Assembly (NCBI RefSeq): GCF_000337835.1 | Contig: NZ_AOLM01000021.1 | Span: 1 to 64,000 of the forward strand | Origin: Haloferax sulfurifontis ATCC BAA-897 | GTDB taxonomy: Archaea; Halobacteriota; Halobacteria; Halobacteriales; Haloferacaceae | DNA length: 64,000 nucleotides | Direction of reading: 5' to 3' | Shown here: one piece after another, positions 48,027 to 51,774 of the stretch | Position numbering within the stretch: position 1 is the first letter of the stretch | Layout of the letters: each line of letters opens with the position of its first letter | Program-made: the position numbers and the translations under genes | Notes under the pieces: model-generated | Database searches by the model: none | What the model saw: the letters and a program-made list of their open reading frames with translations, nothing else | What the model was told of the DNA's origin: nothing

Positions 48027-48142
48027 GCCCTCTCTGAGGCGTTTTCTGACGCAGACCGCGGTGGGCGGTTGAGACGATTAAGATACCATGACATGTGGTA
48101 ACTCTACGCTTACTAAAACCGCGTGGTGACGTAGCTCCGGCT

Positions 48143-48655
48143 ATGGCACGATTCGTCCGAACGAGGCGACGGTTCCTCGAACTGGCAGGCAGTGGTGCGG
48201 TGGTGGGAATCGCCGGCTGTCTCGGTGGGGGCGGCGGCCAGCAGGAAACGGAGACGGAAGCGACGACCGAAGCGGCCGACGACGACCACGACGAGGAGCG
48301 TCCGGAGGGCGTCTCCGCCGAGGAGTTCGTACGCGGCCCGGTCCCCGAACCGTACCGGACCGCGCTCTCGCAGGCGAACGAGCGACGGGACCCAGACGAC
48401 CTGTTCACGAAGGAGGCGGTCAAGTTCCAAGAGGCGGACGACGCCGTCGAGGCGGGACTCACGGAGGCGGGGCGGAACTGCGGCAACTGCGCGGAGTACA
48501 TCCCCGACAAGAACGGCGACGGCTTCGGTGCCTGCGCCAAGGTCGAGGGCTACATCGGCCCCGAAGACTGGTGTTCGCTCTGGGAGTCTATCGAGGAGGC
48601 CGAGGCCGAAGCCGAAGAAGGCGAGGACGGAGGCGAGACCGCGTCCGTCGTCTGA
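48143..48655 (+). CDS. HiPIP-type iron-sulfur lipoprotein
   Basis: A 170-residue protein. A Tat signal (TRRRFLELAGSG) leads to lipobox IAGC, then an acidic linker. The C-terminal part has CGNC, FGACAK and WCSLW, giving the four-Cys pattern of high-potential iron-sulfur proteins (C-x2-C, then two single Cys). It would be an electron carrier on the outer face of the membrane. ATG 48143 puts the twin Arg in the right place. Confidence 0.9.
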   Translation: MARFVRTRRRFLELAGSGAVVGIAGCLGGGGGQQETETEATTEAADDDHDEERPEGVSAEEFVRGPVPEPYRTALSQANERRDPDDLFTKEAVKFQEADDAVEAGLTEAGRNCGNCAEYIPDKNGDGFGACAKVEGYIGPEDWCSLWESIEEAEAEAEEGEDGGETASVV

Positions 48656-48658
48656 GGT

Positions 48659-48961
48659 TCACTCCTGAGCCACGCCGATGTTCTTCAGCGACCCGCCGCA
48701 CCGCGGACAGACCTGTTCGTAGACGCCGTGGCCCGAGCGGTAGCCGCACGCGGCACACTCGTACCGCGCGCGCTCGACGAGCGTCGTCGGTTCGGCCTCG
48801 ACGAGCGTCTCCGTCCGGCGTTCGACCAGCGCCTCGGTCCGGCGCTCGACCAACTCCGCCGGGGGTCGTTCGACGAGGTCCGTCGGCTCGGGGCCGACCA
48901 GCGCCCGTGATTTGGCTTTGACGAGGTCTACAGGCCCGCGAGTGTCGATATCCTTGCTCAT
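48659..48961 (-). CDS. Octapeptide-repeat and zinc-ribbon protein
   Basis: A 100-residue protein. From residue 13 to 68 there are seven consecutive eight-residue units each starting LV (for example LVERPPAE, LVERRTEA, LVERRTET, LVEAEPTT). A zinc ribbon with CAAC and CPRC follows. The repeats are unlike the usual acidic haloarchaeal linkers; the charge alternates. The zinc ribbon suggests nucleic-acid or protein binding. Convergent with the HiPIP gene. Function unknown. Confidence 0.8.
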   Translation of the reverse strand: MSKDIDTRGPVDLVKAKSRALVGPEPTDLVERPPAELVERRTEALVERRTETLVEAEPTTLVERARYECAACGYRSGHGVYEQVCPRCGGSLKNIGVAQE

Positions 48962-49115
48962 GTCACTGTGTACGCTGTGTCAGATGTTAACTCTTACCGG
49001 CACGCTCCGTTCTCCCTGACGACGCCGAATTCGGCCGTTTCGCCCCGATTCGGTGGGTTCGGTCCCGAGACGCGCTTTCGACGTACTTTTTATCCGCGAC
49101 CGTTTTCATCCGCGC

Positions 49116-49517
49116 ATGGCAGAATTCATGGTCGTCGTCGCCGACCCCGACTCCGGTGCGACCTACCAAGTCGACGTCGAAGGACAGGACGCAAACCGAT
49201 TCCTCGGCCGCGACCTCGGTGACGAGGTCGACGGCGCGGCCGTCGGTCTCGACGGCTTCACGCTCGAACTGACGGGCGGTTCGGACAAGGCCGGCCGACC
49301 GATGCACCCCAACGTCCCCGGCGGCGCGCTCAAGGAAATCCTCGCCGAAGACGGCATCGGCTACAAGCCGTCCCGCGACGGCGAGCGCAAGCGCGTCACC
49401 GTCCGCGGCCGCGAGGTCTCCGGCGAGACCGTCCAGATCAACGCGAAGGTCGTCGCCGGCGAGGGCGACGTCGCCGCCGCCTTCGGCGAGGGCGACGACG
49501 AAGAAGCGGACGAATAA
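49116..49517 (+). CDS. rps6e: 30S ribosomal protein S6e
   Basis: A 133-residue archaeal S6e with the conserved [17 protein letters not shown] and [20 protein letters not shown]. It is a small-subunit ribosomal protein. CTTTTTATC about 27 bases before ATG 49116 is a strong promoter for a leaderless transcript. The acidic tail is typical of haloarchaea. Confidence 0.97.
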
Positions 49518-50511: not shown

Positions 50512-51774
50512 CTAGCGCTCGGTCTCGACGCCTTCGTCGTCCTCGTCGTCGGCCGCGGCTTCCGCTTCCGCCTTCTCGACCGCGTCGGCGACCTGTTCGA
50601 ACGCTCGGAGGATGACGCGCTTCGTCGTCGCGCCCTGCGTCGTCCAGTGGTGGGCGTAGTCGAGCATGTCGTCGTAGATATCGGGCTTACAGCCGGCGGC
50701 CTTCGGGTGGCCGCCGCCGTTGACGAGGTCGGCGACCTCGTGACAGCGCTCGAAGTCGTCGGAGCCGCGGATGGAGGCGCTCCCGGCGGGCTTGACGACG
50801 ACCGCCGCGTCCGCTCCCGCCTCGCGGAGGGCGTCGGCGACCTCGTTTTGCGAACATCGGCCGTAGGTGATGCCGACGGTCCAGTCGCCGACGGTCTTCA
50901 GGTCGGCGCGGTCGACGGCGGCCTGAATGAGGTTCTCCTTTTCGACGCGGCGGTGGGCGATGTACTCCTCGACGACCGGCGGGAGGTCCGCGCCGTACGC
51001 GCCGACGACGGCGACGTACTCCTCTTTCGAGGTCCAGTAGGCGTAGTCCGCGAGGTCCTGACTCCGCTCGTCTTCGTTCAGCCAGAGGTCGTGGTCGCGG
51101 GTGACCGCCGCGAGCTCCGAAAACCGCTCGTCGAACTCGTAGTCGAGTTCGCGGAGCGTCACGTCGGTCGAACACTCCTCGTCGGACTCGCCGACGACGA
51201 GGTCGACGCCGGCCCCGCGGACCGCTTCGGCGACTTCCGGCTTCCACTGGTGGTGGTCGTACCAGTGAATCTCGCCCGCCGTCTCGACGAGCGCGGTGAG
51301 CTCCTCTTCGACGTACTCGAACTTGTCCGGACAGAGGTCGCAGACGTACACTTCGACGCCCTCGGGGGCGTAGTCGGCGACGCGCTGAAGGTCGTCTTCG
51401 AGCGAGTACGGACTCGACCCCATCAGCGCGACCGGCGATTTCGGACGCTCGTCCTCGTCGCCCTCGTCGAGGGCGGGTTCGTCGTCGTCTTCGTCATCGT
51501 CGCCTTCGTCGTCCGCGAGTTTCTCCTCGATGCGTTCCTCGAAGTCGGCCACGTCGAGGGCGGCGTCGTACGCCTCCCGGAGGAGGGCGACACAGCCGAG
51601 GCCGTCGGCGTCGGTGTCGGTGACGACCGCGACCGAGGCGTCTTCGAGTTTCTCCTCGGCGCGCTCTTCGGCGCGTTCCTCGTCGAACGACTCGGGGTAG
51701 AAAAACCCGGCACCGGGGAGCACGGACTTGCGGGGGAGCGAGAGCCGAGAACTGTCGATGAGCTCGTCTTCCAT
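50512..51774 (-). CDS. DHH-family phosphoesterase (RecJ-like)
   Basis: A 420-residue DHH/DHHA1 protein. The metal site is formed by TDTDADGLG (residues 52-60) and HWYDHHQW, and the DHHA1 domain carries NGGGHPKAAGC. An acidic insert of about 30 residues lies after the first motif. The family cleaves single-stranded nucleic acid or nanoRNA. ATG 51774 is the first good start. Confidence 0.94.
   Translation of the reverse strand: MEDELIDSSRLSLPRKSVLPGAGFFYPESFDEERAEERAEEKLEDASVAVVTDTDADGLGCVALLREAYDAALDVADFEERIEEKLADDEGDDDEDDDEPALDEGDEDERPKSPVALMGSSPYSLEDDLQRVADYAPEGVEVYVCDLCPDKFEYVEEELTALVETAGEIHWYDHHQWKPEVAEAVRGAGVDLVVGESDEECSTDVTLRELDYEFDERFSELAAVTRDHDLWLNEDERSQDLADYAYWTSKEEYVAVVGAYGADLPPVVEEYIAHRRVEKENLIQAAVDRADLKTVGDWTVGITYGRCSQNEVADALREAGADAAVVVKPAGSASIRGSDDFERCHEVADLVNGGGHPKAAGCKPDIYDDMLDYAHHWTTQGATTKRVILRAFEQVADAVEKAEAEAAADDEDDEGVETER

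Follow-up and report, generated by a model that had tools for sequence, protein, structure and literature searches.

The gene discussed here lies at 48659..48961 on the minus strand of the 64-kb window, by which we mean the whole stretch of DNA analysed, and encodes 100 residues from an ATG (stop codon 48659-48661). The protein starts with 12 leader residues, continues with seven eight-residue units ('octads') that each begin with Leu-Val, and ends with a CxxC/CxxC ribbon. Read along the minus strand, residues 1-4 precede the leader 8-mer IDTRGPVD (residues 5-12, 48926..48949), which stands in the register of the array and may, on our reading of the sequence, be a degenerate eighth unit. The octads proper are LVKAKSRA (48902..48925), LVGPEPTD (48878..48901), LVERPPAE (48854..48877), LVERRTEA (48830..48853), LVERRTET (48806..48829, identical to the preceding unit at 20 of 24 nucleotides), LVEAEPTT (48782..48805) and LVERARYE (48758..48781). 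Their LV pairs fall at residues 13, 21, 29, 37, 45, 53 and 61, and the array (residues 13-68) runs without interruption right up to Cys69, the first residue of the ribbon CAAC...CPRC (residues 69-100, 48662..48757).

The stop codon is 3 bp from a convergent gene, 48095-48655, whose product has a twin-arginine/lipobox-like start, four spaced cysteines that we take to resemble those of a HiPIP-type protein, and no Pfam match at 1e-5. On the other side, 154 bp separate the start from the gene of ribosomal protein S6e, which is transcribed divergently (49116..49517, plus strand; PF01092, 9.3e-40) and serves as our synteny anchor. A promoter-like box, GTTAAC (48986..48991, minus strand), is placed 24 nt before the start codon and occurs once in the 64-kb window. 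The same distance is seen in 12 of 14 Haloferax species, and 27 nt in the other two; in the genomes G008 and G009 a GTG start one codon upstream restores the 24 nt. A 420-residue minus-strand ORF at 50512-51774 carries a DTDADG motif, presumably like that of DHH phosphoesterases, and has no Pfam match at 1e-5.

Is the periodicity real? The sequence-only reading of this DNA had described seven exact, consecutive octads starting with LV at residues 13-68, most of them reading LVE. The ORF translation bears out the array, with LVE in five of the seven (the first two read LVK and LVG). 'Exact' holds for the spacing and for the LV pair, but not for the octad sequence: the seven units are identical on average at 13.8 of 24 nucleotides, and Tandem Repeats Finder detects only 3.4 units (48770-48850). 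Of 3000 shuffles of the protein, one gave the same residue seven times running at a fixed period (any residue, periods 4-20), and all seven N-terminal leucines fell in one phase modulo 8 in none of 200,000 shuffles; the pattern is thus not a product of chance. Across 14 Haloferax species, all 95 octads open with Leu and 88 of them have Val next (the remainder being A, M or T), although octads of common ancestry in related species do not amount to 95 independent observations. In 14/14 orthologs all leucines preceding the first Cys share one phase modulo 8, and proline occurs in 46 of the 95 octads, in line with the earlier remark that this is no coiled-coil heptad; the array does not display the hydrophobic residues at 3-4 spacing on a continuous helix that mark heptad coiled coils. 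Ice-nucleation proteins and prion octarepeats also have a period of eight, with another consensus and another logic.

A zinc ribbon at the C terminus had likewise been proposed, and two profiles recover it above their curated cut-offs: Pfam DUF7129 (PF23455; residues 63-100, 40.5 bits against a cut-off of 30, 2.3e-10) and NCBIfam NF033497 (rubrerythrin-like, rubre_like_arch; residues 67-100, 45.6 bits against 32, 4e-12). Both CxxC knuckles, C69-C72 and C85-C88, are conserved in 14/14 Haloferax orthologs. From these matches, the last 32 residues are predicted to fold as a Cys4 ribbon of the DUF7129/rubrerythrin-like kind, with zinc (or iron) as its metal. With other haloarchaeal DUF7129/NF033497 proteins the octad protein shares its C-terminal 34-38 residues, which pass both cut-offs. 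Family members found next to S6e in two sister genera measure about 39-44 aa, with one 8-residue leader; tandem octads are absent from them and from the other-genus ribbon proteins examined.

The window comes from a Haloferax that is a near relative of H. denitrificans, and the protein is identical in L031. With the full protein as query, 96 of 147 related genomes gave some match at E 0.01 or better. Outside Haloferax the matches, among those listed, were mostly ribbon-only, and the ones examined have no octads; five matches seemed longer (G126, G141, G019, G033, G086), yet these too have none. In Haloferax, octads are present in 14/14 genomes, in exact register with the first Cys. A search with the octads alone matched 42 of 170 genomes of the family: 15 from Haloferax, all reaching E 1.9e-5 or better (the 14 whose orthologs were counted, plus G153) and 27 others at E 0.011-0.1, none convincing. 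A second octad query matched 25 of 392 genomes of the order, 13 from Haloferax and 12 from elsewhere (9e-4 to 0.0096); the four of these 12 that were examined all proved to be 24-bp DNA repeats without a ribbon. Plasmids yielded a single match, ribbon only and without octads, and viral contigs none. Among the genomes searched, the octad array appears restricted to Haloferax.

Perfect or near-perfect 24-bp tandem DNA repeats are found in several haloarchaeal genomes (L197, L198, L199, L200; G024:C1:1667978-1668247), and these are homogeneous at the DNA level, unlike the octads. One Haloferax genome (L042; G013:C3, about 126179-126280) has four exact copies of a 24-bp unit encoding LVESDVES on the plus strand, which adjoin other short serine/valine or arginine repeats; we rejected it as a relative, since its 24-bp DNA repeat is perfect and its setting differs. 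A DNA pattern of four in-phase CTS-GTS units was also discarded: it misses the window's own gene, which has a TTG codon, and in 25 of 147 genomes what it matched were 24-bp repeats of no relation; a reversed control gave matches too.

Counted back from the first Cys, five octads are present in four species (G004, G005, G010, G013), seven in another seven (G000, G001, G002, G003, G006, G007, G011), eight in G009 and nine in G008 and G012. Variation in repeat number between strains had been thought possible; it is seen between species (5, 7, 8 or 9 octads among 14), whereas the same-species pair G000/G153 has identical octads. The DNA is 24-base periodic as stated earlier, and octad number changes in whole 24-bp units. 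When octad 3 is omitted from G008, 182 of 192 nt are identical to G009, the best of nine omission choices, and by this alignment the two differ through gain or loss of a single 24-bp unit. Octads 2-3 of G012 match its octads 4-5 at 35 of 48 nt, the closest match among 21 block pairs, in keeping with a 48-bp duplication. Most units are probably old, since they are well diverged (mean unit-to-unit DNA identity 11.7-14.4 of 24 across species). In a tree of S6e and downstream DNA, the seven 7-octad species cluster together, with G012 beside them, and G008 pairs with G009. When the root is set on the sister genera, the same tree places G010 (five octads) with G008/G009, apart from the other five-octad species, so that more than one order of octad gains and losses may fit.

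The octad residues are under purifying constraint while silent sites diverge. Pooled Nei-Gojobori dN/dS over the seven 7-octad species (21 pairs) is 0.204 for the octads and 0.162 for the ribbon, against 0.576 for residues 1-12, and in the four 5-octad species it is 0.136 for the octads and 0.099 for the ribbon. The LV columns alone give 0.083. Octad leucines are encoded by CTC, CTG, TTG, TTA or CTA, so it is the residue that is kept, not the DNA. The excess invariance of LV columns over other octad columns has a Fisher p of 0.049 in the 7-octad species and 0.40 in the 5-octad species, a contrast that is weak within subgroups because most columns are conserved between close species. The pI of the protein is 4.6-6.6 across the 14 orthologs, versus 4.1-5.0 for six neighbours, and the net charge of the octads ranges from -8 to 0; the protein is less acidic than its neighbours in the 7-octad species, but not clearly so in the 5-octad species. 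It is probably cytoplasmic.

Where did the array come from? We examined 70 S6e loci (L098-L167), taken from 113 S6e-bearing genomes: 14 are Haloferax loci with octads, and at four a short ribbon gene runs divergently from S6e; at the remaining 52, that strand shows no convincing ribbon over 1.5 kb (at L130, one of the 52, a Cys-rich frame was judged spurious). A search with the short form matched 17 of 170 genomes, ten from Haloferax and seven from two other genera. In all seven non-Haloferax genomes the gene lies beside S6e and encodes four residues, then FDRSxWYE, then Cys, without octads. Octad-free relatives, which the sequence-only reading had named as evidence against itself, therefore occur outside the genus (7/7 orthologs) and not inside Haloferax (0/14). 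Since these octad-free orthologs occupy the same locus in two sister genera, the array is most simply a Haloferax gain. The leader, four residues plus one 8-mer in the sister genera, measures four residues plus 8 x (n+1) in Haloferax, where four residues are followed by one leader 8-mer, n octads and Cys; in G008/G009 this layout requires the GTG start one codon upstream. Octad 7 aligns with the FDRSxWYE of the sister genera, and the last octad reads LVERSWYE in many Haloferax species. We suggest from such sequence likeness that the octads may have originated by copying of the leader 8-mer. To go further, and to see in the array an expanded ribbon leader whose octads mimic the first strand and dock to the ribbons of other copies in trans, giving a homotypic chain or condensate tuned by copy number, would be very speculative, and we hold it to be very unlikely.

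Two AlphaFold2 models were obtained, both from shallow alignments (8 and 7 sequences), so that their low pLDDT is compatible with a fold or with folding on binding. With 8 sequences, block-mean pLDDT is 44-56 over residues 1-60 and 72-80 over residues 61-100, with helices at 10-17 and 35-54. With a 5-octad relative placed first (7 sequences), block means are 46-57 over residues 1-50 and 59-88 beyond, and residues 1-50 contain only a 4-residue helix, none matching that at 35-54. Neither model has strands in the octad array apart from the first ribbon strand, which octad 7 overlaps. None of 390 Foldseek matches reached E 0.001 (the best being 4tpu, a disulfide reductase entry, E 0.05), and a sequence search of solved structures gave a single non-significant match, again 4tpu (E 0.96, there named rubredoxin), and no octad match. 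The beta-solenoid once entertained for these repeats is thus unsupported, with array pLDDT of about 44-57 (from the shallow alignments) and no confident Foldseek match. The frequency of proline, together with this pLDDT, fits a flexible extended chain, and the models suggest a tail that is probably disordered. Disordered low-complexity sequence, and nothing more, had also been named beforehand as an argument against a meaningful repeat; the disorder is probable, but the Leu/Val register is under purifying constraint.

The reading we favour, at a probability of about one half, is a flexible multivalent arm of short linear motifs on a zinc ribbon, gained in the Haloferax stem, changing by whole 24-bp units and predicted to bind. 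On this view the N-terminal part would be flexible and consist of linear motifs eight residues long, repeated in tandem with the pattern LV-E-x-x-(P/T/S)-x-(E/A/D), each using its Leu-Val pair as sticker and its charged, Pro and Thr residues as spacer. Such an arm would rely on avidity to bind a single groove-bearing partner or multiple copies of that partner, the ribbon being its folded anchor. The array would have emerged in the Haloferax stem, ahead of the ribbon of an ancestor that had no octads, and whole 24-bp units would since have been gained or lost by tandem changes. We infer both the disorder of the tail and its multivalent binding; of the ideas first put forward for the octads, that of a binding ladder endures, in that a repeated binding arm stays the best reading.

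Could the array instead be a neutral or length-only spacer, a slippage-prone low-complexity extension before the ribbon without specific binding? Octad number does differ between species, the tail is charged, Pro/Thr-rich and of low pLDDT, and pure 24-bp DNA repeats are found elsewhere in haloarchaea. However, the units are probably old and are diverged in DNA with the LV register still kept, their dN/dS is about as low as that of the ribbon, and array-less or out-of-frame members number zero among the 14 Haloferax species, which makes a spacer unlikely. A regular folded repeat, for example a beta-solenoid whose half-coil or turn is one octad long, would account for the strict period of eight and the invariant hydrophobic pair, but adjacent Leu and Val should not both point into a beta core unless they lie at a corner, most other octad positions are charged, polar or Pro, and copy number is 5, 7, 8 or 9; with no confident model and no Foldseek match at E 0.001, we regard this as highly improbable. 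It is also improbable that the octads build a helical arm broken by Pro/Thr into a series of short helices, as opposed to a coiled coil. One model does draw a helix at residues 35-54, spanning the Pro-free octads 4-5, and the sequence is rich in E/A/R; this helix is nevertheless of low confidence (block means 50-56) and missing from the model of the 5-octad relative, proline is present in nearly half of the octads, and on a helix a period of eight should drift by about 80 degrees per unit, so that LV would form no stripe.

A redox-switched holdase working like the mycobacterial Ruc (Rv0991c), where oxidation of the Cys4 site would free zinc and the flexible tail, through its hydrophobic stickers, would then bind unfolded clients, seems to us quite unlikely. 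The FmdB-type model TIGR02605, to which we presume Ruc belongs, stays below its cut-off of 31.3 bits (11.3 for our protein and 17.6 for the G012 relative), and the neighbouring genes give no chaperone link. By comparison of the two proteins, a plan of a small Cys4 ribbon with a probably disordered tail would be shared. In the accessible part of the source, Ruc is a small zinc ribbon with a disordered tail that acts as a redox-switched holdase, and this tail is required for chaperone activity (PMC7448276). It is C-terminal and hydrophilic, however, whereas the Haloferax tail is N-terminal with regular LV pairs, and no octads are reported in that part of the source. SSSCA1/ZNRD2, as described in the accessible part of its report (PMC7070046), combines a zinc ribbon, a disordered linker and a partner-binding C-terminus, and resembles our protein in joining a ribbon to a flexible region whose length varies between species; it is a human protein, though, and tandem octads are not seen in that portion of the report.

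In the open-access literature, our scope here (most subscription papers lie outside it), we found no recognisable description of the octad/ribbon protein and no work on DUF7129; literature on HVO_1826 to HVO_1829 names an aminopeptidase homologue, which we take to be a neighbour. The ribbon family is already known, and what is new is the tandem octad arm, here in one genus. It offers a single-branch case of a short linear motif multiplied before a folded knob, where the outgroups have the same locus but no octads. As close species carry 5 to 9 copies, a tractable archaeon could be used to test how motif number affects binding, and the arm provides a hint of function for one small zinc-ribbon protein of a kind of which haloarchaea have many that are uncharacterised.
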